Origin: Isoetes taiwanensis
Lineage: Eukaryota > Streptophyta > Lycopodiopsida > Isoetales > Isoetaceae
Direction of reading: 5' to 3'
Length of the DNA stretch: 64,000 bases
Assembly (NCBI GenBank): GCA_021234155.1
Contig: JAJEKV010000205.1
Span: 1,595,501-1,659,500, forward strand
Below are positions 3,191 to 42,447 of the stretch, piece by piece (the stretch's first letter is position 1; the number at the start of each line of letters is the position of its first letter). Both the position numbers and the translations under genes were made by a program. The notes below the pieces were generated by a model that was not told the DNA's origin, did no database searches, and saw nothing but the letters and a program-made list of their open reading frames with translations.

Positions 3191-3760
3191 ACGCAATAGG
3201 CTGTCTTGAAGTCTTGCATAAACTTATGCAGCAATGAGAGAATTCCTATCGGCATTTACCGGATCATCCCCCCCTCCAAAAAAAAAAAAAACCAATACCT
3301 ATGTTTTTTTTTCTCCTCCCATCAACTTACCCCCTCATGACTCGGTATGGTGTGAAATGGAAAAAACCATATTTGATATGCGTATATGTATGTTTTTGAA
3401 GGTCATCCAAATGAGTTGCATGATTACTAACTATAAACCCCCCTTGCATCAGGTTAGTCCACTACCTATAAATCAAGAACATTTAAATGACCAATATTGT
3501 CGCTACCAACGTAGTCATGTTTCCACGTACACTTTGACCACTACCACTACATAATGCTTCTTGACCCTATGATGTAATAAAAAATGATGAGATCATATCT
3601 CACAATGGAATATGTAATAACAGGGGGTTTTCTTTGTGTTTTTGTACGCTTTTCACTAAGGTTTTCCTATGATTTCGTGATGTATTCAAATGGATGTACT
3701 AATGCGTACATCTAGAGTGCACCATTTCTGAGCCATTTGACTTTAGCCTCTTTTTTTTCT

Positions 3761-3940
3761 AATGGTCAACAACCAATGACTCACAACAAAAGCCCTTTTT
3801 TTTGTGCGTGTGGTGCATAATGGTCAACAACCAATGGCTCACAACAAAAGCCCTTTTTTGTGCGTGTGGTGCATAATGGTCAACAACCAATGGCTCACAA
3901 CAAAAGCCCTCTTTTTGTGTGTGTGTGGTGCATAATGGGC
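3761..3940. repeat. Three ~56-58 bp tandem units in the left foldback arm
   Basis: The unit begins AATGGTCAACAACCAATG and ends GTGTGGTGCAT. It occurs three times here and about twice, inverted, near 6236-6412 in the right arm. The copy number therefore differs between the two arms. Confidence 0.8.
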
Positions 3941-4871
3941 ACATGAAGGGCTTGAAGGGCGCATGTAGTGCAGTTTCCCTGCCGGCAACACATTTTTTAT
4001 CATAACTTTTGATCCAGAGCTCTGTTTGAGATGATTTTTATTGCGTTGGAAAGCTCTCTCCGAGATCGTTTTGATAGTATATAATATGGATATGTTTGGT
4101 TAAATTATCTATGCTAAAACAGCAATTTTTCGGCCGGGTTTGGTAGGCTTTCACATCCTACCAGCTGATTAATACAGGATTGCGCTACTGGATATTGTTT
4201 TATGGCTCATTCCGAATGAAGCTTGCAAAAAATTACCATGCATTTTTAGATTTTGAGGCTTCTAGATCCTTGTGCTAACAAGCAGAAAAGTTTCCCACTT
4301 TGGTTTCTCACCACAAGAATCCATGGAGGCCAAAGGCTGCTGTTAAATTCCAGTTGAAAAATGTTTGTGTATGGGTGTTGCAAACTTTATGACTTTCAGA
4401 ATAATGGGATCAATCTGCTCTATCTTTATGGTAACTTTTACTTATGTTCTATTTGTTTTATTGTGATGAAATTCAAAAGCTACAGGTGATGAATGCCGTA
4501 AATGAATTCTAGTTTTTTTCTGGTTTGAATTCTAAAATTTTTGTCACACCGGGGGGGGTGTGACGTCCCTAAGGCCCCGAAGGGGCCAAAAAATTTTTTT
4601 TGCAACACAAACCATTAACATCCAACATATAAAAATTAAATCCCCCAACACATAACAACCGACACATAACAACCATTGACATTAACAACCGACACATAAC
4701 TACCATTGACATTAATTAACACAACCATTGGGTCCAACACATTTAAATTAAAATCCCCCTTAAACCCCCTTTGGTTTGGGTGCATATTCACACGGGGTGA
4801 CGTAGGGGGATTATAAATCTACATCATGAGAGGTCAAGCGGTAAATGTATACATGGAAGGGAACTCGAGTG

Positions 4872-5035
4872 GTATAAATTTATACTGTCTATGAGCTCAA
4901 GCTGTATAAATTTATATCATGCACTCCACATGAAAAAGAGGGAGCAATATAAATTTATACCGAAGTTCTTTTATAAGAGGTATAAATTTATACAACGAAC
5001 TCCTTTAAGAAAAGTTTCGGTATAAATCTATGCAT
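4872..5035. repeat. Repeated palindrome GTATAAATTTATAC
   Basis: The self-complementary 14-mer occurs near 4872, 4903, 4947 and 4980, with one-base variants, and a weaker fifth copy lies near 5021. The spacing is about 30-45 bp. It sits in the centre-left of the foldback element. A role is unknown; cruciform formation or a protein-binding array are possibilities. Confidence 0.7.
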
Positions 5036-6536
5036 ATATAACTACCATTGACATTAATTAACACAACCATTGGGTCCAACACATTTAAATTAAAATCCCC
5101 CTTAAATCCCCTTTGGTTTGGGTGCATATTCACACGGGGGGTGACTCCGGGCAACGAGAGCTGTTGGATAGGCATATTCACCCCTTATTCCTTAATCTAC
5201 ACCGTACGTAAAGTTCCTCGTTTGTGGGGTATGCAAGTACAAAATTTGCTATACTGTATAACAAGATTCGCAAAATACTATAAGATTTCAAGCGGAATAC
5301 TATATGGTGTTGATTTCGTACGTGCAAAATACAATTATGAGGGCTTTCGCTGCCCTACGTCACCCTCCGTGTGAATATGCACCCAAACCAAAGGGGGTTT
5401 AAGGGGGATTTTAATTTAAATGTGTTGAACCCAATGGTTGTGTTAATTAATGTCAATGGTAGTTATGTGTTGGTTGTTAATGTCAATGGTTGTTATGTGT
5501 TGGTTGTTATGTGTTGGGAGATTTAATTTTTATATGTTGGATGTTAATGGTTTGTGTTGCAAAAAAAAAAATTTGACCCCTTCGAGGCCTTAGAGACGTC
5601 ACCCCCCCCCCGGTGTGACAAAAATTTTAGAATTCAAACCAGAAAAAAACTAGAAGTCATTTGAGGCTTTCATCACCTGTAGCTTTTGAATTTGATCACA
5701 ATAAAACAAATAGAACATAAGTAAAAGTTACCATAAAGATAGAGCACATTGATCCCATTATTCTGAAAGTCATAAAGTTTGCAACACCCATACACAAACA
5801 TTTTTCAACTGGAATTCGCTTGACCTTTGGCCTCCATGGATTTTTGTGGTGAGAAACCAAAGTGGGAAACTTTTCTGCTTGTTAGCACAAGGATCTAGAA
5901 GCCTTGGAATTTGCTTAATAACTGCCTCAAAATCTAAAAATGCATGGTAATTTTTTGCAAGCTTCATTCGGAATGAGCCATAAAACAATATCAAATAGCG
6001 CAATCCTGTATTAATCAGCTGGTAGGATGTGAAAGCCTACCAAACCCGGCCAAAAAATTGCTGTTTTAGCATAGATAATTTAACCAAACATATCCATATC
6101 ATACACTATCAAAAAGATCTCAGAGAGAGCTTTCTAACGCAATAAAAATCATCTCAAACAGAGCTCTGGACCAAAAGTTATGATAAGAAATGTGTTGTCG
6201 GCGGGGAAACTGCACTACATCCCTTCATGTGCCCATTATGCACCATACACACAAAAAGAGGGCTTTTGTTGTGAGCCATTGGTTGTTGACCATTGAAGAA
6301 AAAGGCTAAAATCAATGGCCCTTCATGTGCCCATTATGCACCACACGCACAAAAACAGGGCTTTTGTTGTGAGCCATTGGTTGTTGACCATTGGAAAAAA
6401 AAGGGCTAAAATCAATGGCTCAGAAATGGTGCACTCTAGACGTACGCATTAGTACATCCATTTGAATACATCACGAAATCATAGGAAAACCTTAGTGAAA
6501 AGCGTACAAAAACACAAAGAAAACCCCCTGTTATTA

Positions 6537-7371: not shown

Positions 7372-7376
7372 TGATA
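7372..7376. repeat. Target-site duplication TGATA (left)
   Basis: TGATA lies directly before the 5' LTR and is repeated exactly at 42443-42447 directly after the 3' LTR. The 5 bp size is normal for gypsy integration. Confidence 0.9.
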
Positions 7377-8985
7377 TGTGACGTTCCAGCATAATATATG
7401 CCCCAATACGTATATTATACTGCCACGTCACACGTACATGTCACAAGTGACATGTACTTGAGAGTAGGACAACGTTGCACCTAGGAGCTAAAGATTGCAC
7501 CTAGGGGGCAACCTTGGATGTTGGGTATGTAATTAAACATACACAACAAAAGGTTCCTTGTTCATCCATTTCCAAATGGCTTAAAGCCATTTGCCCATGT
7601 GGATGCCCTAACCTAGATAGGGTCTATATAAGGGCTAAAACCCTAGACCCTAGCTCTCCTTTCACTTTGCCAATTAGGGTTTTCTAGAGCTTCCTTTCCT
7701 CTTTCGCAATTAGGGCTTCCCTGGGCCAATTCGGCCAAGGTAAGGCTCGAAATCGCATTGCCGTGCTCAGAAAAGTCGGATTTGCACAACAAAGTTCTTG
7801 AGTAGCATTTGTCTTCGCAAGATCGGGGAGCATGGACGCCTTCAGAGGATCAGGGGAGCAAGCCAAGGAGCAGGTATCTAGTTGTTACGTTGTGCAAAAC
7901 AAATCTTCGAGGCGTGGCAATATGCTTGGGTTTAGTATGTTAAATCATCTCACGGAAGCCTTGTAGATCCCTAGATCCGAGACTCTAACGAATGAACCTA
8001 ACATTGGATGTTAAGTAGATAGATTGATATGATTCTCTATCTACGTTACGTGATATTGCATGTATTTCACTCTGTGATCTCCTTGTTGTGGGAAGGGGGT
8101 AGAGACCTAAAAGGTCTGTGTAGAAGATGCTCCTAGCATAGCACCTTAGTTCCCACATACTTGCGCCCGTGCACGAGGAGCCCCACCGGTGTGGGTGAAG
8201 GGGCAAGGCCGGTTGATAAGGAGAAACTTGTCTCATCATGGTGACCCCTCTGGTAGTAAAAAGCCTATCGGGGGTCTTTCTTTGGCTAGGCTTAATGGCT
8301 TGTCGCTGCGTGTGGGCAAGGCATGAGCTCGACACTCGTGGGGTGGTGGACATGACCTTCCGGTGAGTTCAAGTCGAATAAAGGCGGTGGCCCTCTAGCC
8401 GCTGCGATGAGCATGGATACCTCTGGAGGAGAGGCAGCTCTCTTCCCTGCCTCATCGGGGTTGGGGAGATGCAACCCAGCCAGTGCTTAGCCCCTCGGCT
8501 ATTCACCCGGCAGGCTACGGCCAAGTCCCAACACTTTTCAGCCTACTCTGCAAAGTGTGCACGGGAGGGGCGGATGGAGTGGACTACCCTAAGCCATGTT
8601 CTATGCCAGCCAAATCCATTGCCATGAATTACGCATGCGCAATGAACTCGGAGGCCTAGCCGTCGGGTCATCCCCTTGAGTCCAGCCGGGTAGGATCTTT
8701 CCTTTGTATTATTGTTATGAAGGTATTGGCCGACTTCTGTGATGTTGCTATTGTTATGGTGATTGTGTTGTATATTATTAGTTGTGCTCACGTTTGTTTG
8801 TTACGCTTCCTTGAGATAGGTCGATCCGATGGAAGGCGGATGAATGACACATCCACTCTTCCCTTGCTGGCTCTGCCCCCATGGGAGTGGAGTCAGGTGG
8901 ATGGCCCCTGTCAGGCAGCTGCCAGGGGGAATGCTCCTCCTTCGAATACGATGCGGGCATCGTATAAGGAGTAGGGGACGTCACA
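7377..8985 (+). repeat. 5' LTR of the chromovirus
   Basis: The LTR runs 1609 bp from TGTGACGTTCC to GGGGACGTCACA, so its ends form a short inverted repeat (TGTGACGT/ACGTCACA). It matches 40837-42442 over its whole length. A TATA box (CTATATAAG near 7623) lies about 250 bp in, followed by AAACCCTAGACCC and ATTAGGGTTT motifs common in plant promoters and leaders. Open frames within the LTR are not considered coding. Confidence 0.93.
7622..7631 (+). promoter_or_regulatory. TATA box of the chromovirus LTR
   Basis: TCTATATAAG is followed by a run of plant leader-like motifs. The same sequence is conserved in the other LTR near 41086, as expected for the U3/R promoter. Confidence 0.75.
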
Positions 8986-8986
8986 G

Positions 8987-8998
8987 TGGTATCAGAGC
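8987..8998 (+). other. Primer binding site, initiator tRNA-Met
   Basis: TGGTATCAGAGC begins one base after the LTR end. It is the standard complement to the 3' end of plant initiator tRNA-Met used by most plant LTR retrotransposons. Confidence 0.93.
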
Positions 8999-9196
8999 AT
9001 GATCTTGGCATCCAAGATCGAGCACTGGCCATTTTTCCCTTAGGACTAACAGTAGATTCGAGTCTTGGGGTATAGCCACCCAAGCAAGAGCTCGAACAAT
9101 TGGGAAAATTTCCAATTTTTGGGTAGATTTTAGCTCCATGATAGGTTGCTAGTGAAGTGTAGCATCTTTCCCAACCTAAATTGCCAAAAAAATAGG

Positions 9197-9476
9197 CCAC
9201 CCCTCACGAGTGCGCCAAAGACCATTCGGTCGCAAACCGATTCGCCAAAGACTTTGTGTGAGTGGTTGACCTCGTTGACATAGTTAGGTGTCCCAATTAA
9301 TTAAGATAATGGTGTAGTTTGGCTTATTTCCTTAGTTCTAGATAGGTTTGTATGTTATAACACTAAGAAACTCCCCCAGTAAATTGTAAAATAGCCTCGA
9401 AAGCGATCGACCCCTCACGAGCGCCCGGACCCTTTGGGTTGGTAATCCAATCCGCCCAGACTTGTGTGAGTGGTGG
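9197..9476. repeat. Two nested-hairpin repeats upstream of the H3-like gene
   Basis: Copies at 9197-9268 and 9410-9476 start CCACCCCTCACGAG or CGACCCCTCACGAG and end GTGTGAGTGGT. The two ends are imperfectly complementary, and an inner complementary pair (GGTCGCAAACC-type) lies between them. Three further copies occur at 11034-11512. No family is known to me. They are probably structured DNA or RNA regulatory elements of this retrotransposon. Confidence 0.8.
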
Positions 9477-9592
9477 GTGTTTTGAAGTATGGTGAACCCA
9501 AATGAATGCCTCGTGCACCTTCGCTAATGCCCTAGTTTGTTTTTTTTTTTTCCCCATATGAATTGCGGGTCCCAACCCTAAATCCCACCTCC

Positions 9593-9601
9593 CTATAAAT
9601 A
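9593..9601 (+). promoter_or_regulatory. Internal TATA box upstream of the H3-like gene
   Basis: CTATAAATA is preceded by CCCACCTC and followed by AATTAGGGTTTCC, a plant-type promoter and leader context. The first ATG downstream, about 100 bp on, is the MARTKQT start at 9701. A matching arrangement stands before gag at 11673. Confidence 0.6.
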
Positions 9602-9700
9602 GAAAATTAGGGTTTCCATTTTACCCCCACCTTTCCGGAGAACAGCTCGCCCAAGAAGACGATCTTCAGGCGCCAAAGCTCAAACCCGACAAACAAGAGC

Positions 9701-10933
9701 ATGGCACGGACGAAACAGACGCCAAAAGGTTGTACCCACCCGGTTATGTGAGCTTCAAGAGCCGTCCGTCGAAAGGCCGTAGGCCGACGGAGGCAAGTGC
9801 ACATCGGGAAGAGGAGGCACCGGTTGAACCACCTAACCCTAACCCCGAGGAGCAGGGAATGTGTATCGAGAACCTTGATTGGGAGTACGACGCGGGCGGG
9901 CGGAACCGCGGAGGGGGAGCCGGAGGGAGATCTTCGGGATAATGAGGAACCAGAGCCGAACCAAGAAGAAAAAAGAGGGAAAGAGAAGAAGGCGAAGCCG
10001 AGGAAATCTAAGGCTGGAGCGCGGAAGGAAAAGGAAGAACTAAGAAAGAGAAGGGAGGAGAAGGAGCAGAGGAGGGAAGAAAGGAGGAAGCAAAGAGGAG
10101 CGGGAGAAGGTGAGGGCGAGAAAGGTAAGGACCCGGAAGTGCCATGAGAAGCCGAAGAAGAAGAAGACACCGCCGCTGGAGTGACCATACAGAGCCGGAT
10201 CCCGAGAAGCCCCCATCTTCGCCCCGGACCAACTTGAGGAGGGAGCGGAGGACACGTAACCAGAGAGACTTCGGCCCTTCAAACCCACTGGGAGGAGGAA
10301 GACCCCGCGGGCTAATGCACCGCCCTATCCTAAATGGCGTCGCCAAGCACCCCAAATGATGACACCAAGAAACCAAGGCCGCAGAGGGAGTCCTATGCGC
10401 TGAAGCGGGACTTGAAGTAATGAGGAGGAGCTAAAGGAGTATACCGCTGCACATGAAAAATGCACGTAAGAATACTCCAAATACTACGAAGAACACAGAG
10501 TGAAGACCATTGAGGGAGGTCGGCCAACGAAGAAGAACACGTTGAAGCGCCCAACCGAACAGCCAACCCCTCCTCCGGAAGAAGCCGATGAAGAGGCCGG
10601 CGGACTCAAAATTCGCGCGAGGGCAGCCCAAGAAATCAAGCACTTCCAGCAGAGCTATGGCTTCCTCATTCCCGTGAGCCCCTTTGCACGCCTAACAAGG
10701 GAGATTTTGCAGGAGTTCGATCCATCCAACGGGTCACGGACGACATGTTGCTCGCGACCGCAAGGAGGCGCCTGAGCAAAGACATCGTGACATTACTTGA
10801 AAACTCTCGGCGTGTGCTCAACACGCTTAAGAGAGTGACTTGTATGCCCAAAGATATTAGACTAGCTCGGTTTATTAAGAAGGAGGGCCCCCGAACTATT
10901 GTAAATGACCTTTTCTTTGGTATAAGTCTATAA
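9701..10933 (+). CDS. Histone H3-like (possibly CENH3-like) protein encoded by the chromovirus, frame-broken
   Basis: The gene begins with the first ATG after an internal TATA box. Its first residues, MARTKQT, are those of histone H3. A long, highly charged linker rich in K, E, R and P follows (to about 10600). The C-terminal part (10605-10933) is a histone fold of the H3 family. It has an alpha-N/alpha-1 segment EIKHFQQSYGFLIPVSPF, then RLTREILQEF, an alpha-2 helix containing VTLLEN where H3 has VGLFED, and KRVTCMPKDIRLARFI, nearly the H3 C-terminus. The LIP..PF wording and the long tail resemble centromeric H3 more than canonical H3. The MPKD wording is canonical. The reading frame shifts near 9730-9750, 9930, 10147, within 10360-10500 and near 10735. 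These breaks may be sequencing errors (see findings) or real decay. It ends IKKEG plus about 17 extra residues. Inferred role: deposition in chromatin of the element or its target. The H3-family assignment is strong; function is unknown. Confidence 0.85.
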
Positions 10934-11033
10934 TTTTGATAAATAAATAAGTCCAATCGAAGTTTAAATAGGGTGTATTTGCGAATTCTACATTTAGAAA
11001 TAGCAAAGTTCGAACAAACCAGGCATTTTGATC

Positions 11034-11512
11034 CCACCCCTCACAGAGTGCGCCCCAACCCATTAGGTTTGCAAACCGATCCCACCTGGCGACTGTGTGT
11101 GAGTGGTTGAGCATGGTTTGGTGCCAAATCTTGCCTAAATGAAGAAAGTAGGTATACTATTCGACCTAGCTCATCCCAGTTAGTAGGAATTGACCCCTAA
11201 TCTGTCCAAATTGGCCAACGCCGAGTCAAATGGAGCTCCACCCCTCACGAGTGCCTGGACCCATTTGGTTTGGAATCGATTCCACCACAAGACCTGTGGT
11301 GAGTGGTCGAACCCCAAACTCCACTACAACTTGCCCAAATAAGGCGGTAAAGGCTCAATCCTACTTATCTCGATGAGATATCAGGATTATGTCTTTAGTT
11401 CTCTAGTTTAGCATCATTAGTGACCTAAGCAAAAGAGCCCACCCCTCACAGAGTGCGCCCCAACCAGTTCGGTTTGCAAACCGATCCCACCCTGGCGCAC
11501 TGTGTGAGTGGT
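11034..11512. repeat. Three nested-hairpin repeats between the H3-like gene and gag
   Basis: Copies lie at 11034-11110, 11239-11310 and 11438-11512, spaced about 200 bp. Outer arms CCCCTCACAGAGTGCGCC and GGCGCACTGTGTGAGTGG pair. In the last copy the loop holds the perfect palindrome CGGTTTGCAAACCG (11470-11483). The same repeat occurs twice before the H3-like gene. Each cluster lies some 110-160 bp upstream of a TATA box. Confidence 0.85.
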
Positions 11513-11792: not shown

Positions 11793-13308
11793 ATGGCCAC
11801 TTCTTCATTCAAGCGATGGTACAGCGCCACAGCTCATGTGGCTGAAGCTGACATCGAATCGGTCTTCAATGTCTTCCGAAGGGAACTTGACATTGAGGCC
11901 ACCATCAACGCCACTCCCTTCTACCAGAACATCATGTCTGAGTTCCATGCCAAGATAGGACCCTTTTTGGTAGAACTCCCACCTTGTGTAGGGTATTTTG
12001 CACCTAAACCGCGCCCTCAAGTCAGCCCCCGCAAGATATCCCAAATGTAGATAAGTACTTAGAGAATAAAGCAGTCCGCCTTCCCAACTACATGTCCATC
12101 TCACGTCAATAGGAGGAGGTACTTCTCCTATACAAAGAAATTTGTAGCCATCTTTCTATCTCTTGGGGTCAAACCCGGATAGGGAACCCTCAGTCTGACC
12201 TTTAGAAGTTGAACCCATAGCCATGGCCGCAAAGGAGGAGGAGGAACGGATGCGACTCGAGTACGAGCAAGAAGAAGAGGAGGAGGATGAATACGAATCA
12301 GACCCGGAAGACCTGGATCTAGAACAGGAGAGGCAGCAAGCGGAACAGCAGATCCAAAACTTCGAAGAGGGACTGCGAGCAACAAGAAGAGCCCCACCAC
12401 TCGGGCAGGGCATTACAAGCTTGACGCCGGTGTTCATAGCAGGCGAGGCATATCTAACCCTTCACGACATCAAGAATCTTCCACAGTGCCGCGACAGAGG
12501 CCTTAGGGTGGATGAGATTTTACACCTTCTACGACGGCGGATCTCGGCGACTTCATGCGTCGAAGCTTCGGTGACTTCCCTATCAGCATAAGAGAAGCCA
12601 GGACCTTCACCGGCGAGACATCATCAGATATAGAAGCTTACGCAGGCATCAGACAGATGATGGCCGAAAGGGAATTGCCCTCGGAGGAGGAGTTCATGGC
12701 AATTCAGGAACAAATGGGCATCAAAGGCAAGTCCACATCAGCATTATTACCGAGCTCGCCAACACCCATCCTGAAGCAGCATGGAGGCAGTATCAACCTA
12801 AGGAGGCTGGTGCACCAAGACTTCAGAGAGCTAGAGGAGATACCAGTGGATGACTTCGCGGGAAGGCACAGGGCAACTTCCTCGTCTGCCGAAGAAACAG
12901 GGCATGATAAGGCGCTCAGATACTACCTGCCGTTGCTGCTGGACGGAAGAATAGCGGTTATTCACCGCCAATTTAGCCCAAGAGGGGAAGAAGGGGTCTT
13001 TATGCTTATCGCCCTCTCAGGGTTCGGACACCATGCACGATTACCTCCAAACATCGACCATGTTGTCCTGATCAAGAGAGCGATTGCATTGACCATCTTC
13101 GACTTTGCAATCCCTTATAAAGGCTGAGGGCAGATTGGCAATGGCAGGCAAGCGTATACATCGGATAGGAGAATTGCGGACATGGAGGCAAAATACTCAA
13201 GGAGGGGCGTCAACAAATATTCTCGGGGAACTTAACGGGGTCATTAGGTGCGGCCCAAGTGAAGAAATTTTTGGAGGACCACCACGACTACCTCAAGAAG
13301 TTTGAAGA
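11793..13308 (+). CDS. Extended N-terminal gag region of the chromovirus, family unassigned
   Basis: The start chosen is the ATG at 11793 (context GCTCATGGCC), the first after the internal TATA box. The first ~85 residues (MATSSFKRWYSATAHVAEAD...) are compact and helical-looking, with no family I recognise. After frame breaks near 12050 and 12115-12225 comes an acidic coiled-coil stretch (about 12223-12400, EEEERMRLEYEQ then many E/D and Q). A 190-residue block follows (12555-13127) with SSAEETGHDKALRYYLPLLL and RLPPNIDHVVLIKRAIAL. It stands directly ahead of a recognisable capsid region and probably forms the matrix or spacer portion of gag. It could instead be another captured cellular gene. 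Confidence 0.55.
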
Positions 13309-13471
13309 GTAAAAGTTTATTAAATTGCATGTAAAAGATTTAGTATATATATATGAATATAATATATATCTCTTTTTGTATATAATTGCTCCCTCAAATT
13401 GTATAAACAAGTAAAACAACGTAACACACAAAACAAGAACTAATGATCGAGAATGTACTCTAATGTGCATG
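13309..13471 (+). other. AT-rich insert in gag, possible intron
   Basis: A 160 bp AT-rich stretch (TATATATATGAATATAATATATAT) interrupts GC-rich gag. It starts with GTAAAAG after a KKFEE-like reading and ends in TGCATGCAG before LEYLETLMN. These are plausible donor and acceptor sites, but the joined frame is not clean at the exact junction, so splicing is only a suggestion. Confidence 0.4.
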
Positions 13472-14730
13472 CAGCTAGAGTACCTAGAAACCTTGATGAA
13501 CACGGCAGGCGAGAACAAGAACGCACCCCGCCAAGGCGCTTCCGGTAGGAATTTGCTTGAGAAGGTAAGCGGTAACACCGGAGGAGGAGCTATCCCAAAT
13601 CAGATCCGACATCCACGACATAAGGGCATTGCTAAAGGGGCAGCGGCAATAAGAGGACAGGACAGAATGTGCCCTTGCTTAGGGAAACGCCCGGTGGCGA
13701 ACAAATTAACGGCGAAGGAAGAGAAGCGGAGAGGGAGAAGATCTCCTAGCTCGGGATCCTCAAGCTCCAGCTTCGGATCTGCACTTCGGCATCGGAAGAG
13801 CGGGAAGAAGAGGCACGAGGTCGCCGGCGGGATCCAAAACCGGCGAGGGGGACGAAAGCTGACCGATTATCGGAAGAAAGTTGACTCGCCCTTAGTAATG
13901 TGTGGAAAGCGGAAAGTTAGAGCAGTTTTCGGGGGAAAACAGATCCGAATGGAAGCGAGAGGCATGGCTGGATGAGATGAGTGAGTATGGCAACGCCTAT
14001 GGCATGAAAGATAAAGACAAAGGAGGGGTAGCAGCAAAGCAAACCTCAAGGGTGCAGCCGTAATTTGGTGGAAGGGGTATGCCAAAGCACATGAGCTGGC
14101 GAGGGACGGTTGCAAGTTGAGAAAAGTTCGCCAAGGCATTCAAACATCATTATGTACCAAGAGAACATAAGTGCAACATGATGCGGCCAGTTCTATAGGT
14201 CGCAACAGGGCAACAAATCAGTCGAAATACACGGAGGAATTCATGAGACTAAGGCTTTATGTGCCAAAGTTGAGTGAAAAGCATGCGGTGGAAGGCTATA
14301 TTGAAGGCTTGAACGATGAGATCCGCAAGTTTCTAAGGGCAATAAACCGAAGTCCGCGGTATGTGAGGCGAAGCAAAGGCCATAAGTTTGCAAGGAACGA
14401 GGTCCACAAGAGCGGGCATCAAGACAACAATATTTCGGGATAAGGGAAGAGCACGGGGGCTATAGCCCAAGGGCGGCAAGCCCAAATAGCTAGCAAACGC
14501 AAAGTACAATTCAAATTATGGGAAGCAAGGCAACACAAGTAGTGGCAAGTAGGAAAAAAAGCGGGTAAGCTTCAAGGAGCAAGGAGCCAAGTCTAACTAC
14601 TCCCAAGCGGTGAGGCAATTTCTGCAGATCCATTCCCAAGGAGAAGAAGCGAGGGAATGTATAGAGAACCCGGTTGTGTTTCAGATGCTTCCAGCCGGGG
14701 GCATAGGACCAACAATTGCCCCCCGATTAT
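13472..14730 (+). CDS. Gag capsid and nucleocapsid region of the chromovirus, frame-broken
   Basis: After a basic, serine-rich stretch (13650-13975), the capsid domain of the Retrotrans_gag type appears. GAAVIWWKGYAKAHE occurs near 14055. Then, in another frame, FAKAFKHHYVPREHKCNMMR occurs at 14128-14190. SKYTEEFMRLRLYVPKLSEK, followed by AVEGYIEGLNDEIRKFL, lies at 14222-14335. A zinc-knuckle remnant with GHRTNNCP lies at 14700-14722, preceded by cysteines. Several single-base frame shifts separate these pieces. The order capsid then knuckle is normal for gypsy gag. Confidence 0.8.
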
Positions 14731-14894
14731 GAATGCGGCATTGGCGAGCTGGGATGGGAGACACCATCGGATGCGGGGCGGCGGCGAAAGCGGGATTACA
14801 TCCATGGCGAGTGTCACATCTTTGCGGCTATTGATACGTGGAATGCGAGAAAGTCGGGTATAAGGTAATCTCAACGACGGAAAAGCCCAAGAGA

Positions 14895-16765
14895 AATCCT
14901 TTATAGTATTGATAGACTCTGGAAAGCGATCATAATTTTGCATCCCCTAGGATGGTAAGCATGTTGAAGTTAAAGCCGTTAAAGTCCAAGCCCGGGCCGG
15001 TGGTGCTAGCCAATGGAGCAATTAGGCATCTGCAGGAAGAGAATAAACTTCAATGTAGACTTGCCGGTGTTAATGTTGCATTGGGAGCGGAAGTCATGAA
15101 TATAGGCAAGTATGATCTCATTATTGGAATGGAATATCTTGGACCAGCAGGAGCAATCATCGATTGTGGGGAAACGTAAGGTGACCTTAACAACGCCGAG
15201 AGGGCAAAGTCATCGAAAATCACAGGTAAAAAGTAAACCCAATCATGCAATGCATGAGTAGTGAAAAATTGCTTAAGTGCATAAGAAAGCAGCAGGTGGC
15301 CTATCTCCTTAAGCTTGAGCTCCAAGATCGGGAAATGGGAGAGAAATAAAGAGATCAAAGAATCTAGCAAGCTCCCGGGCCAATAGCAAAGTTGATCGAG
15401 GAATTTCAACGACTTGTTCCCCTGATGAGATTAAGCAGCTTCCGCCCTATAGAGGAGTCGAGTGTGAAATAGCACTTGAACACGGGGCCGAAGCCTACAA
15501 GCAAGGCACCTTATAGGATGTCAACCGAGGAGTTGACAGAGTTAAAGAAGCGATTGCAAGAATTGCTAGACCTAGGGTTCATAAGACCTAGTGTCTCCCG
15601 TTGAGCCCCTATTCTCTTTGTGAAGAAGAAGGATGGGAGCCTCGGGATGTGCATTGATTACCGCCCGGTTAAATAAGCACACCATCAAAAATAAGTATGC
15701 CTTGCCTAGGTCGGATGACTTAATGGATCGATTCGCGAGGGGAGCAAAGATCTTCTCCAAAATAGATCTCGGATCGGGATATCACCAGATTAGGATCAAG
15801 GAGGAAGATATTCATAAGACAGCGTTGAGGACAAGATATGGGCACTATGAGTTCACGTTATGCCCTTTGGATTGTCTAATGCACCAGCAACATTTATGAG
15901 GTTAATGAGCGGCGTCCGCGAATTTCTAGATTCCTTCATCATAGTCTTCTTCGACGATATCTTGGTTTCTGATAAGTACGTGGAGGAGCACGCCCAACAT
16001 TTGAGGAAGGTGCTTGAAAAGTTAAGAAGGCATCAACTCTTTGCGAAGTTATCGGGTGCCAGTGCCCCATAGAACGGAAAGAGTGGAGTACTTGGGGGCG
16101 CGTGATCACGCAGGAAGGCATTTCCACAGACCCCTGCGAAGATAGAAGGCGTGATCGGGCTGGCCGGCACCAAAGAATACGCATGAAGTCGGGGAGCTTC
16201 CTAGGGCTAGCGGCTATTATAGAAGATTTGTGAAGAATTTTGCCAAGGTAGCGGCGCCATTAACGGATCTCACAAAAGGTGGGAAGATAAAAGATTGGGC
16301 AGCCCATTGGTAAAACAAGGCCCGAAAGCATTTGAGACACTTGAAGGAAGCTTTGACGACGGGCCCGGTATTGGTCTTGCGGATCCGACCAAAGATAAGC
16401 TTGTAGCAACAGATGCTAGCGGGGATAGCGGCAAAGTATGATCCTCCTCATGCGGGGAGGAAAGAGTAGTGGCCTATGATTCCAAGAAGTTGAATGGCCA
16501 GAAGCAGCTACCCAACATGATGAGGAGCTCCCCGGCTATAGTAAGGGCTTTAAGAATTTGGAGGCATTATTTATTAGGAAGGAAATTCGGTTAGACCACG
16601 AGATCACCAAAGCCTCCAATACATATTTTACTTGGCGCTCCTTAATTTGAGGCAAAGGAGATGGATGGAATTCTTGGAAGAATATGACTTTGAGATAAGT
16701 TATAAGCCAGGGAAGCTCAATGTGGTTGCGGATGCCCTTTCCAGGAAGCCATTGGCAACCAGAAT
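14895..16765 (+). CDS. Chromovirus protease, reverse transcriptase and RNase H, frame-broken
   Basis: The aspartic protease starts with VLIDSG (near 14908) and continues through [20 protein letters not shown] to 15172. Reverse transcriptase runs from the [16 protein letters not shown] segment (near 15503) through [16 protein letters not shown], the [18 protein letters not shown] block (15760-15810) and the [15 protein letters not shown] motif (15860-15905). Its catalytic FFDDILV is at 15949-15969. The RNase H portion (16300-16765) is badly broken but ends with the typical [17 protein letters not shown]. Stops and frame shifts are frequent, many at CAG/CTG/CCGG sites. The catalytic aspartates are still readable. 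Confidence 0.88.
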
Positions 16766-16794
16766 TCATTGTAACGCCATATCAACACTCGTAA

Positions 16795-17816
16795 GTGAGT
16801 TTGGCAAGAAGATTGAGGAAACACTGCCGACGGACCTCGACTTCAAGGAAGTTTGGGCGAGCCTTTCCAAAGAGGCCAGGACCGACAAGGAAAGGGAGAT
16901 GTTCAGGCACTACAAGAAGGAAGGGAACTTGCTATATTATAAAAACAAATTGTGTGTACCAAAATCTTCGCAAGTTAGAAAGCTTATTTTGAATGATACA
17001 CACAATAGTCCCATAGCAGGGCATGCAGGGTTCATGAAGACATATTTCAAGATTAGAAGCAGTTATTATTGGCCCGGCATGAAGAAGGAAATAGCAAGAT
17101 ATATTAGAGAGTGCCAGATATGCCAGCAGACAAAGGCGGAACAGCTCCGGATCCCAGGTGCCTTGGAACCATTGCCCGTGCCAAATGCTAAGTGGGAGGT
17201 GATAAGTATGGATTTTATTACAGGACTCCCAAGAACAGCAAGGGGCAAAGATGCCTTGATGGTGGTAGTAGATAAGTTGTCAAAGATGGCACACTTTGTG
17301 CCGTGCAGGACAACAGATGAAGATTAGACACGACCCAACCTATTTGTTAAGGAGATTTTTAGGCTCCATGGCATGCCAAGGGAGATAATCTCGGATAGAG
17401 ACTCCAAGTTTATGAGTGCCTTTTGGCAGGACCTATTCACCACTATCCAGACAAAGCTTTCGATGAGCACGGCATATCATCCCCAAACAGATGGTCAGAC
17501 GGAGAGGACAAACAGGATCATCGAAGATATGTTAAGAAGCTATGTATGGAACAAGCAATCCAAGTGGGATGATCTCATCTACCTAGTAGAGTTTGCCTAC
17601 AACAGCACCAAGCAGGAGTCATCGCAGATGAGTCCTTTTATGATTAATTACGGGTATCAGTGTCTTACCCCGGATACTTGGCACAACCCTGTGTCCAAGG
17701 TGGAAGTCTCCCAGCAGATGCTTTCGGAAATGCAAGACTTGGTGGAGGAAGTGAGAGGATATCTCCTTGCAGCAAGAAGCAGGCAGAAAAGCATCGCGAC
17801 AAGCATAGGACGGTAA
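16795..17816 (+). CDS. Chromovirus integrase (HHCC and DDE core)
   Basis: The zinc-binding region reads NDTHNSPIAGHAGFMKTYF followed by YYWPGMKKEIARYI and CQICQQTK, giving the H...H...C..C pattern (16990-17135). The catalytic core has D in SMDFITGLP (17205-17235), D in IISDRDSKFM (17384-17413) and E in TDGQTERTNRI (17490-17525). One stop (TAG at 17325-17327) splits the core between the first and second aspartates; otherwise the frame is long and well preserved. Integration would produce the 5 bp duplication seen around the element. Confidence 0.93.
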
Positions 17817-18328
17817 GAGAATTTGAAGTGGGAGACAAAGTGTGGTTGAAGATCAAAGTCAAGCAGGCCAAGCTCGCCATCGGCAATTGCAAGAAGCTTG
17901 CTCCAAGATGGGCTGGACCCTTCAGAATAGAGAAGAGAGTAGGTAACCAATCCTACAAGTTGGACTTGCCAGCACATCTTAAGATACATAAGGTTTTCCA
18001 CGTAAGTTTGCTAAAGAGGCACACCCCAAACCCCGAGGAAGTATTGGAGACAAACGAGTTTTTAGAAATGACGGACGAGCATATTGAAATCGTTCCGGAA
18101 GTCCTTCTTAATAGATCTTATAAGAAGACAAGAAGGTCAAAATTCCTCCAATACCTTGTGAAGTGGAAGCACTTACCAGTGGAAGACGCTACGTGGGTAC
18201 TTGAGTCAGATCTTAAGAAACAGTACCCCGAGTTTATGGAGCAATGCAAGGGTCGGCTCGTCACCGAAGTAGTCGACATCAGCAACCAAGAAATCGGCTC
18301 AGGCATGTCGATTTGGGTTTGGATTTAA
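17816..18328 (+). CDS. Integrase C-terminal GPY/F region and chromodomain
   Basis: Downstream of the core comes the conserved EFEVGDKVWLKIKVKQAK segment, then KLAPRWAGPFRIEKRVG and KIHKVFHVSLLKRHTP. A canonical chromodomain follows (about 18130-18260), with FLQYLVKWKHLPVEDATWV and the helix ESDLKKQYPEFMEQ. Chromodomains of chromoviral integrases are known to bind modified histone H3 tails and direct insertion into heterochromatin. Here the same element also encodes an H3-like protein, which makes this reader of special interest. The reading frame ends with TAA at 18326-18328. Confidence 0.93.
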   Translation, partial: REFEVGDKVWLKIKVKQAKLAIGNCKKLAPRWAGPFRIEKRVGNQSYKLDLPAHLKIHKVFHVSLLKRHTPNPEEVLETNEFLEMTDEHIEIVPEVLLNRSYKKTRRSKFLQYLVKWKHLPVEDATWVLESDLKKQYPEFMEQCKGRLVTEVVDISNQEIGSGMSIWVWI

Positions 18329-18408
18329 GCATGTGTAGCTAAGGCTAATCTACGCATGCAGCCTATGCTAGGCATGGGTTGCATGCGTTGTTACCGATGA
18401 TGAGACCA
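18329..18408. other. 3' noncoding part of the chromovirus, left of the guest array
   Basis: This noncoding DNA continues at 40096 once the guest array is removed. It contains a small inverted repeat, ACGCATGCA at 18352-18360 and TGCATGCGT at 18380-18388. Confidence 0.7.
18404..18408. repeat. Target-site duplication GACCA (left) of the guest array
   Basis: GACCA directly precedes the first guest LTR and is repeated at 40091-40095 directly after the last one. The whole three-LTR array therefore corresponds to one insertion site. Confidence 0.9.
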
Positions 18409-40090: not shown

Positions 40091-40836
40091 GACCACTACG
40101 GTGCTCTCTAGGGCGTGGTGTAATGTCAATGTAGGCATGACCGCGTTTCCCCTTGTATGAGTGGAAGGTAGGTTGGAAGTCTACTTCTGTCCCACGGAAG
40201 TAGACGACCTCGAGAGAAAAGAGGTCATTCAGGTATGCATTGATAGGAAAAGCACCTCTAGTCAATGCCTACGGGGGAGGGCCCTTCACGCCCCATATAC
40301 GGGAAGGACCCAAGTCCCACGCTAGGCAACTACAGGTGTAGGCATGAGCGGCATATAGGCATAATAGAGTATTTGTCTCTTCGGCCGGGATGGGAGAAAC
40401 ATAATCTTCCTATCTTGAAGAGATATGCCTTGCATCCATATAATTGTATTTAATGGGTGGTTCCCTTACAACCAACCCTTATAATAATAATTAAATATGT
40501 ACTAGCGTAGCGTACATCCTGGGGCAACTAGATGGCGGGAGGGTGGCGCTACAAGAACTCAGCGCATAGTTTTGCCATAATGTGTTGTGAGGAGGCGACG
40601 AGAAGTTTTAGTTAAAACCTTAAAGCTATAATTGATGTTAATTTTGTTTATAGTCGATTATGAAGTAGAGGGCGGAAGAGCCTCTCACCATAGTACAATT
40701 CTGATGTAAACTACAAATATTACGAGGTGATTAATATAATATGAATATGTAAGTGTTGTAATTGCGGGATATGCGGTACCCAAGGTGGGGAGATGCGTGA
40801 TCTTTGAGGGGCGACATCAAGTCAAGGTGGGGAGAA
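40091..40836 (+). other. 3' noncoding part of the chromovirus, right of the guest array
   Basis: This continues 18329-18408. It holds a perfect small hairpin (GTCTACTTC/GAAGTAGAC near 40178-40205) and no convincing gene. It ends in a purine-rich tract, AAGGTGGGGAGAA at 40824-40836, which abuts the 3' LTR and is the likely polypurine tract. Confidence 0.75.
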
Positions 40837-42442
40837 TGTGGCGTTCCAGCATAATACTCGCCCCAACACGTATATTATCTTGCCACATCACACGCATACA
40901 TGTCACAAGTGACATGTACTTGAGAATAGGACAACGTTGCACCTAGGAGCTAAAGGTTGCACCTAGGGGGCAACCTTGGATGTTGGGTATGTAATTAAAC
41001 ATACACAACAAAAGGTTCCTTTGTTCATCCATTTCCAAATGGCTTAAAGCCATTTGCCCATGTGGATGCCCTAACCTAGATAGGGTCTATATAAGGGCTA
41101 AAACCCTAGACCCTAGCTCTCCTTTCACTTTGCCAATTAGGGTTTTCTAGAGCTTCCTTTTCCTCTTTTTGCAATTAGGGCTTCCACTGGGCCAATTCGG
41201 CCAAGGTAAGGCTTCGAAATCGCATTGCCGGGGCTCAGAAAAGTCAGATTTGCAACATGAGGTTCTTTGAGTGCTTTGTCTTGACAAGATCGGGGAGCAT
41301 GGACGCCTTCCGAGGATCGGGGAGCAAGCCAAGGAGCAGGTATCTAGTTGTTCTGTTGTGCAAAACCGTCTTCAGGCGTGGCAATATGCCAGTTTAGTAT
41401 GTTAAATCATCTCTGGAAGCCTTGTAGATCCCTAGATCTGAGACTCTAACGAATGAACCTAACATTGGATGTTAAGTAGATAGATTGATATGATTCTCTA
41501 TCTCTGTTCTGTGATATTGCATGTATTTCACTCTGTGATCTCCTTGTTGTGGGAAGGGGGGGTAGAGACCTAAAGGCTGTGTAGAAGATGCTCCTAGCAT
41601 AGCACCTTAGTTCCCACATAATTGCGGCCCGTGCACAGGAGCCCACCTGGCTGTGGGTGAAGGGGCAAGGCCGGTTGATAAGGAGGAACTTGTCTCATCG
41701 CGGACTGACCCCTCTGGTAGTAAAGCCTATCGGGGGTCTTTGCTGGCTAGGCTTAATGGCTTGTCACTGCGTGTGGGCAAGGCATGAGCTCGACACTCGT
41801 GGGGTGGTGGACATGACCTTCCAGTGAGTTCAAGTCGAATAAGGGCAGTGGCCCTCTAGCCGGCTGCGATGAGCATGGATACCTCTGGAGGAGAGGCAGC
41901 TCTCTTCCTGCCTCATCGGGGTTGGGGAGATGCAACCCAGCAGTAGTAGCCCCTTCGGCTATTCACAAGAAAGGCTGGCCAAGTCCCAACACTTTTCAGC
42001 CTACTGCGCAAAGTGTGCGGGAGGGGCGGATGGAGTGGACTACCTAAGCCATGTTCTATGCCAGCCAAATCCATTGCCATGAATTACATGCGCAATGAAC
42101 TCGAGGGAGGCCCTAGCCGTCGGTCATCCCCCTTGAGTCCGAGCCCTGGGTAGGATCTTTCCTTTGTATTATTGTTATGAAGGTATTGCTGACTCTGTGA
42201 TGTTGCTATTGTTATGGTGATTGTGTTGTATATTATTAGTTGTGCTCACGTTTGTTTGTTACGCTTCCGCAGATAGGTCGATCCGATGGAAGACGGATGA
42301 ATGACACATCCACTCTTCCCTTGCTGGCTCTGCCCCCATGGGAGTGGAGTCAGGTGGATGGCCCCTGTCAGGCAGCTGCCAGGGGGAATGCTCCTCCTTC
42401 GAATACGATGCGGGCATCGTATAAGGAGTAGGGGACGTCACA
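40837..42442 (+). repeat. 3' LTR of the chromovirus (1606 bp)
   Basis: It matches 7377-8985, starts TGTGGCGTTCC and ends GACGTCACA. It is followed by the target duplication TGATA (42443-42447). The TATA box is at about 41087. Confidence 0.93.
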
Positions 42443-42447
42443 TGATA

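Follow-up and report, generated by a model that had tools for sequence, protein, structure and literature searches.

Core histones are regarded as a property of the host, in which they carry the silencing of transposons. Viral histones that form nucleosome-like particles have been published (PMC9145170, PMC11500106), and the bracovirus histone CvBV-H4 becomes part of host chromatin (PMC9145170). In the main text of the 2022 review of viral histones (PMC9145170), none of the words retrotransposon, retroelement, and retrovirus occurs, and the word histone is absent from the main texts of the genome papers on Isoetes taiwanensis (PMC8566536) and Isoetes sinensis (PMC10541799). Among the matches listed from the open-licence literature, no histone-encoding retrotransposon was found; a subscription or preprint report could exist. 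Here, we describe an element of I. taiwanensis that carries a histone H3 gene ahead of gag.

The window analyzed, a 64,000-nucleotide stretch of the I. taiwanensis genome, contains a Ty3/gypsy chromovirus-type element at positions 7372–42447, with all stranded features on the plus strand. A TGATA target-site duplication (7372–7376) is followed by the 5′ LTR (TGTGAC...GTCACA, 7377–8985) and, right behind it, by TGGTATCAGAGC (8987–8998), which we take to be a primer binding site (PBS) of the initiator tRNA-Met type. The next features are a frameshifted H3-like gene (9701–10933, with the H3 fold at about 10620–10893), an open reading frame designated ORF2 (about 11793–13312), the gag and protease region (13447–15090), and the region of reverse transcriptase (RT), RNase H, and integrase (15470–17816, the left edge being approximate), all of which are broken in this copy, and then a chromodomain at the C-terminal end of the integrase (18095–18244; Pfam Chromo, E-value 1.8e−10). 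A purine-rich tract recognized by eye (40824–40836), the 3′ LTR (40837–42442), and the second TGATA (42443–42447) complete the element, and comparison of the two LTRs gave a K2P distance of 0.069 over 1586 bases. We assigned the element to the chromoviruses from the LTR pair, target-site duplication, and PBS in the window, the gypsy-type order of gag, RT, RNase H, and integrase in the window and in its relative L059, and the chromodomain behind the integrase. The domains of the gag and protease region were identified in L059 (Retrotrans_gag and Ty3_capsid, with weak matches to a zinc knuckle and an aspartyl protease), in which the chromodomain region is 97% identical to that of the window. The LTRs, the TGATA duplication, TGGTATCAGAGC, and the site before gag given in the preliminary description were all confirmed by the sequence, and the H3 gene does lie between the PBS and gag, but ORF2 also sits between the H3 gene and gag.

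A nested tandem gypsy insertion that is foreign to the element interrupts its interior (18409–40090, plus strand); the insertion is flanked by its own duplication, GACCA (18404–18408 and 40091–40095). The unit of this insertion is 9.6 kb long with end repeats of about 2.4 kb, and about 2.25 units lie inside the single duplication, an arrangement consistent with two internal regions and three end repeats. The non-coding stretches ahead of the H3 gene and of ORF2 contain a repeated motif of about 75–80 bases with complementary-looking ends, CACCCCTCAC...GTGAGTGGT (9196–9268, 9408–9480, 11030–11107, 11239–11311, and 11435–11512; two copies were computed and the other three were found by eye), which is perhaps a promoter or an RNA structure. 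Outside the element, positions 1–1827 at the left edge of the window match bacterial-type large-subunit rRNA (organelle-like DNA), and positions 3615–6536 form a long inverted repeat of about 2.9 kb overall, the arms of which are 90–99% complementary in pieces.

The H3-like gene of the window reads MARTKQT at position 9701, and its H3-like blocks are split over two frames. When a profile search against the histone family was run, the frames at 10470–10775 and 10592–10933 matched Pfam Histone with E-values of 6.5e−5 and 0.0017, and their bit scores, 23.6 and 19.1, were below the curated cut-off of 26.4. In an alignment to the L011 open frame, 1004 of 1170 bases were identical, and 29 of 30 gap runs were not a multiple of three; part of these frameshifts could be assembly error, and the window copy of the gene is dead. 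Any doubt over its H3 identity is removed by the intact relatives, which match clearly: the open frame of L004, which is one place with L009, scored 67.9 bits against the same cut-off (E-value 1.3e−18). Thus, the H3-family gene that had been proposed at 9701–10933 is borne out. The proposed match between its blocks and those of H3 also stood, but the spacing that had been read as one residue off did not, as 17 of 18 intact copies have the canonical H3 spacing, the exception (L044) being without five residues.

The relatives of this gene, here called family A, are numerous. A DNA search of the genome with the fold yielded at least 330 first-look candidates, and the 40 that were scored, the window copy included, were 89–100% identical. 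A protein search with the L004/L009 open frame (390 amino acids), in which 106 of 43,922 loose candidates were scored, yielded at least 114 matches with 53–100% identity. We extracted 18 full-length natural ORFs of 379–421 amino acids, which begin with MARTKQT in 17 cases and with MACTKQT in one. In these proteins, the start is followed by a variable charged linker and then a better conserved segment (PPYPKWPSP...EYSKYYEEH...), together roughly 300 residues, and finally by an H3 fold of canonical length, apart from the shortened L044 and a deviation over a short stretch in L009. The L004/L009 protein aligned to solved H3 with an E-value of 4e−17 and no gap inside the fold, and the fold of L053 aligned to it gap-free as well. 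The ordinary H3 tail is unrecognizable past the first nine residues, with no recognizable K27 or K36 segment.

The genomic surroundings of these copies are also shared. The genome search for other copies revealed two diverged cases, L011/L059 and L045/L061, in which ORF2 and gag follow the H3 gene; between the two, ORF2 is 61% identical and gag is 83% identical over 162 residues. The PBS was present upstream of the H3 gene in 8 of the 11 family-A loci tested. In the L042/L060 copy, the 7 kb downstream matched none of the ORF2, gag, and RT queries, and this copy is therefore considered to be interrupted. A TATAAA motif was located 103–109 bases upstream of the ATG in 32 of 34 family-A rows (L004 and L009 being a single place counted twice, L001 being the window copy, and the diverged L039–L058, with too little upstream DNA, lying outside the scan). 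In the window, the putative promoter of the H3 gene itself is the TATA motif TATAAATAG (9594–9602, plus strand), a 9-mer that is not rare on its own, as the two matches in the window were reached in 12 of 100 shuffles. The recurrence of the gene in other copies with a common upstream region, together with histone matches far above chance, supports the earlier proposition that the element captured a histone gene.

A second set of element-like H3 genes was found in a genome search with a plant H3 sequence, in which 150 of 9031 candidates were scored, giving at least 15 canonical H3 genes and at least 135 partial matches. The 15 canonical host genes were 97–99% identical to the query over all 136 residues, and each of the 12 that were fetched encodes 136 amino acids. 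The 135 partial matches, with 72–87% identity, mostly extended from residues 8–36 to residue 135, and 127 of them were stop-free within the match. Fifteen of these (L076–L090), picked for their long open frames, were read as family B; some of the remaining 120 may be fragments of host H3. The family-B frames encode 400–451 amino acids in all 15 (for L083, 538 when counted from the first ATG), and in each a new N-terminal domain is joined through a basic linker to an H3 fold, the ordinary tail being unrecognizable from the start. Two family-B proteins matched Pfam Histone with E-values of 4.8e−39 and 3.3e−42 (133.8 bits for L079 and 144 bits for L084). The five family-B folds compared shared 77–79 of 89 residues with host H3 (87–89% identity), and the six family-A folds compared shared 43–50 of 88–89 residues; synonymous sites were saturated between host H3 and all of these folds. 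Because of this saturation, the five family-B folds compared are not fresh conversions by host genes.

The family-B locus L079 provided a view of the surrounding DNA. Upstream, a stretch aligns over 117 bases with the window LTR at 80% identity, and downstream lie an ORF2 homologue (BLASTP E-value 2e−8, from a single comparison) and a gag-like start (E-value 0.02, from a single comparison), after which another element in reverse orientation interrupts the copy before pol. No PBS was found near L079 with the five patterns tried. Because of the ORF2 homologue, the gag-like start, and the related LTR stretch, this looks like an element lineage encoding H3, and family B is probably, judging from this one copy, a sister family of elements that shares the gene order. 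The H3-carrying trait is present in at least two families. In family A, and likewise in the single family-B copy read, ORF2 separates H3 from gag; it was located at 266–916 of L059, 5586–6203 of L061, and 463–1290 of the family-B copy L091; across the abutting loci L011/L059, it forms an open frame of 492 residues from stop to stop. No clear relative of its protein was found in these searches: L059 had no Pfam match and no PDB match, and L061 had a single Pfam match with an E-value of 0.13.

The broken state of the window copy and of many other family-A copies would suit the idea that the histone gene is a captured passenger without function for the element. The median dN/dS (Nei-Gojobori method; pairs with usable dS, which are not independent and from which saturated pairs dropped out; open ORFs only, which lowers the values) was, in family A, 0.072 for the fold (77 of 153 pairs), 0.083 for the stretch before the fold (88 pairs), 0.185 for the charged linker (102 of 153), and 0.186 for the first 35 residues (120 pairs), and, in family B, 0.024 for the fold (78 of 105), 0.076 for the N-terminal domain (70), and 0.255 for the linker (85 of 105). 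Among the pairs usable for both regions, the fold had a lower dN/dS than the linker in 65 of 75 family-A pairs, the other 10 showing no such difference, and in 78 of 78 family-B pairs. The H3 fold is under purifying selection in both families, and the family-A gene has been long maintained, since synonymous change between its subgroups is saturated in several pairs. Selection on the fold, with dN/dS of 0.02–0.07 at large dS, contradicts the passenger reading, recent conversion by host genes being countered by the saturated synonymous sites of the folds compared, and we regard that reading as highly improbable. For the same reason, the strong selection on the fold, the chance insertion of a host histone pseudogene was rejected. 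Since the fold is selected in both families while their N-terminal parts differ, the job that the two families share is probably that of the fold, namely, joining nucleosomes.

The residues kept in the fold are consistent with such a job. In 31 of 34 family-A folds (three were left out because the LQEA block was unrecognized, two of them being the open frames L009 and L044), R69, E105, D106, C110, K115, R116, V117, T118, M120, D123, L126, and I130 were invariant, and H113 (30 of 31), R83 (28), and R72 (27) were nearly so; these residues presumably serve H3–H3, H3–H4, and DNA contacts. Others were changed in these 31 folds: R63 to P in 30, K79 to D in 30, K56 to Q or R in 30, R129 to F or Y in 29, and R49 to Q or K in 20. 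Because family A alters these five residues, the formation of normal nucleosomes is not assured. By analogy with giant-virus histones on viral DNA, the H3 variant might instead condense the nucleic acid of the element in the virus-like particle or before integration, an idea to which the long charged linker and the published nucleosome-like particles of viral histones (PMC9145170, PMC11500106) lend some plausibility. Nevertheless, we consider it very unlikely, because the element regions read contain no H4, H2A, or H2B gene, so that the particle would have to take in partners from the host, and because the conserved H3–H3 and H4 contacts point to nuclear nucleosomes.

Phylogenetic trees of 93–94 columns recovered family A as a single long-branched clade (100/100) and placed family B, also a single clade (99/96), among canonical H3 sequences; 7 fold rows were left out of the family-A/CENH3 tree, and the family-B tree left out 16 and used 3 of the 12 host rows. 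AU tests rejected none of the constrained groupings, either in the family-B tree (A with B, p = 0.096; B with host, p = 0.30; B with the P0060 set, p = 0.177) or in the family-A tree, from which host CENH3 was absent (A with CENH3, p = 0.155; A with P0006-type proteins, p = 0.356). The two folds may go back to one capture followed by divergence, to two captures, or to replacement by recombination. The sequence REIAQEF occurs in host H3 and in many of the family-B copies read and points to a lycophyte source, but only as a hint, because P0078, a protein of unassigned source, reads nearly alike (RELAQEF).

A derivation of family A from host CENH3, which would send the element to centromeres, was also considered. 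The LLIPxAPF and KDM motifs of family A resemble those of plant CENH3. Against a rice CENH3 sequence, eight of nine element folds had a higher identity than against canonical H3, with one tie, and the AU test retains the grouping of family A with CENH3. However, the alignment score was higher with canonical H3 in all nine folds, loop 1 between helices 1 and 2 has the canonical H3 length in the family-A and family-B rows aligned and is one residue shorter than in rice CENH3, the family-A proteins start with ARTKQT, and family A did not group with CENH3 in the tree. These results make a centromeric origin and role quite unlikely.

Public metagenome data contain proteins with the same layout of a MARTKQTARK start, a long unrelated linker, and an H3 fold (P0006, P0008, and P0009; P0024; P0030), as well as a set of 11 related long-tailed H3 proteins (P0029, P0032, P0033, and P0060–P0067, of which P0064 reads MARTKQTAWK). 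They possibly belong to histone-bearing mobile elements of other organisms. Best-scoring entries, such as P0001–P0005 and P0035–P0059, were set aside because their names and domain annotations pointed to fusions or to low-complexity similarity to ordinary histones. The pattern stretches found in IMG/VR viral contigs numbered 35, 19, 34, and 126, among which no relative was confirmed, and a search of proteins with 142 residues of L053 as the query gave 32 candidates, none at an E-value ≤1e−10.

Starting from the observed location within an element, the H3–ORF2–gag–pol order in family A, the open full-length copies, the selection on the fold, and the lack of an ordinary tail, we tentatively favor the explanation that an Isoetes chromovirus lineage encodes a nucleosome-competent H3 ahead of gag, in which a long new N-terminal part replaces the ordinary tail and weakens silencing. 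The protein would be produced, with the TATA motif of family A perhaps acting as its promoter there, would pair with host H4, and would enter nucleosomes on the element DNA and perhaps genome-wide. Such nucleosomes could not carry several of the usual marks, as family A has no recognizable K27 or K36 segment and, in some copies, M or I at position 9, and family B has no ARTKQTARK start; because of these missing marks, host silencing would be weakened, being either diluted or kept off the element, and the element would be transcribed and copied more. We counted in favor of this anti-silencing explanation the selection on the fold, the kept contact residues, the new N-terminal parts of both families, the M or I at position 9, and the TATAAA motif. 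Of the 42 family-A tails, 34 have K at position 9, 6 have M, and 2 have I; the tails were picked by a pattern demanding T-K-x-T, so that the presence of K4 is fixed by the pattern and is not a measure of conservation; the M9 and I9 tails occur in diverged copies, and five of the eight belong to the 18 open frames (L039, L042, L043, L044, and L045). However, the K9 kept in most of these tails counts against the explanation, as an anti-silencing histone would not need it. The replacement of the tail is opposed by the MA(N/I/P)TK start of 12 of the 15 family-B proteins, which is perhaps a remnant of ARTK, and by an ARKS motif in some family-B linkers, and a family-B promoter is opposed by the lack of a TATA motif within 200 bases upstream of the 15 loci.

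The presence of an H3 variant and a chromodomain integrase within one element, the ARTKQTARK start of most family-A tails read, and the long extension in both families would also suit a targeting role, in which the element H3 is built into selected nucleosomes, where its long N-terminal extension (which begins with ARTKQT in family A) serves as a tether or beacon for the chromodomain–integrase complex. This role appears somewhat unlikely, as family B is without the ARTKQT start, and the window chromodomain, examined by eye, is without the first and third aromatic cage residues, which places it in group II by the rule of PMC3350952, a group with a little-known role. Whether silencing is weakened or chromatin is marked for integration, the proteins most likely enter host nucleosomes and swap the modifiable tail. 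The element H3 may thereby alter chromatin at the element or its target, as had been proposed from the window alone. A far-reaching version, in which the two H3 families enter chromatin genome-wide and recode it, the M9 and I9 copies of family A naturally inhibit host H3K9 methylation in the manner of K9M, a core histone becomes the weapon of an arms race, and the long-tailed H3 proteins of the metagenomes play the same trick elsewhere, is in our view unlikely.

The maintenance of this H3 by selection suggests that the elements supply part of the host chromatin for their own ends. A retroelement lineage with a selected H3 of its own would imply that part of the nucleosome can come from mobile elements and that a plant genome contains at least dozens of open H3 genes other than those of the host (here, 18 frames of family A and 15 of family B). 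Escape from silencing marks by supplying a mark-less histone becomes directly testable, and histone gene counts, results with anti-ARTKQT antibodies, and H3 proteomics in such plants may include element proteins.

Compared with known systems, the element shares with plant chromoviruses the LTRs, the PBS, the gag–protease–RT–RNase H–integrase order, and an SH3-like domain and chromodomain at the end of the integrase, but it differs from them in carrying an H3 gene and ORF2 ahead of gag and in its length of about 13.4 kb without the nested insert. Its H3 proteins have a fold of canonical length as in host H3, whereas they comprise 379–451 residues with new N-terminal parts. As in CENH3/CENP-A, a divergent H3 fold is joined to a variable long tail, and LLIPxAPF is found in family A; in contrast to CENH3/CENP-A, loop 1 has the canonical length, family A starts with ARTKQT, and family B falls among canonical H3 sequences. 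The element H3 also resembles the bracovirus CvBV-H4 and the single H3s of DNA viruses, which are also captured host core histones, often with an extended tail (PMC9145170), but their carriers are DNA viruses, whereas the H3 described here is carried by a retroelement.
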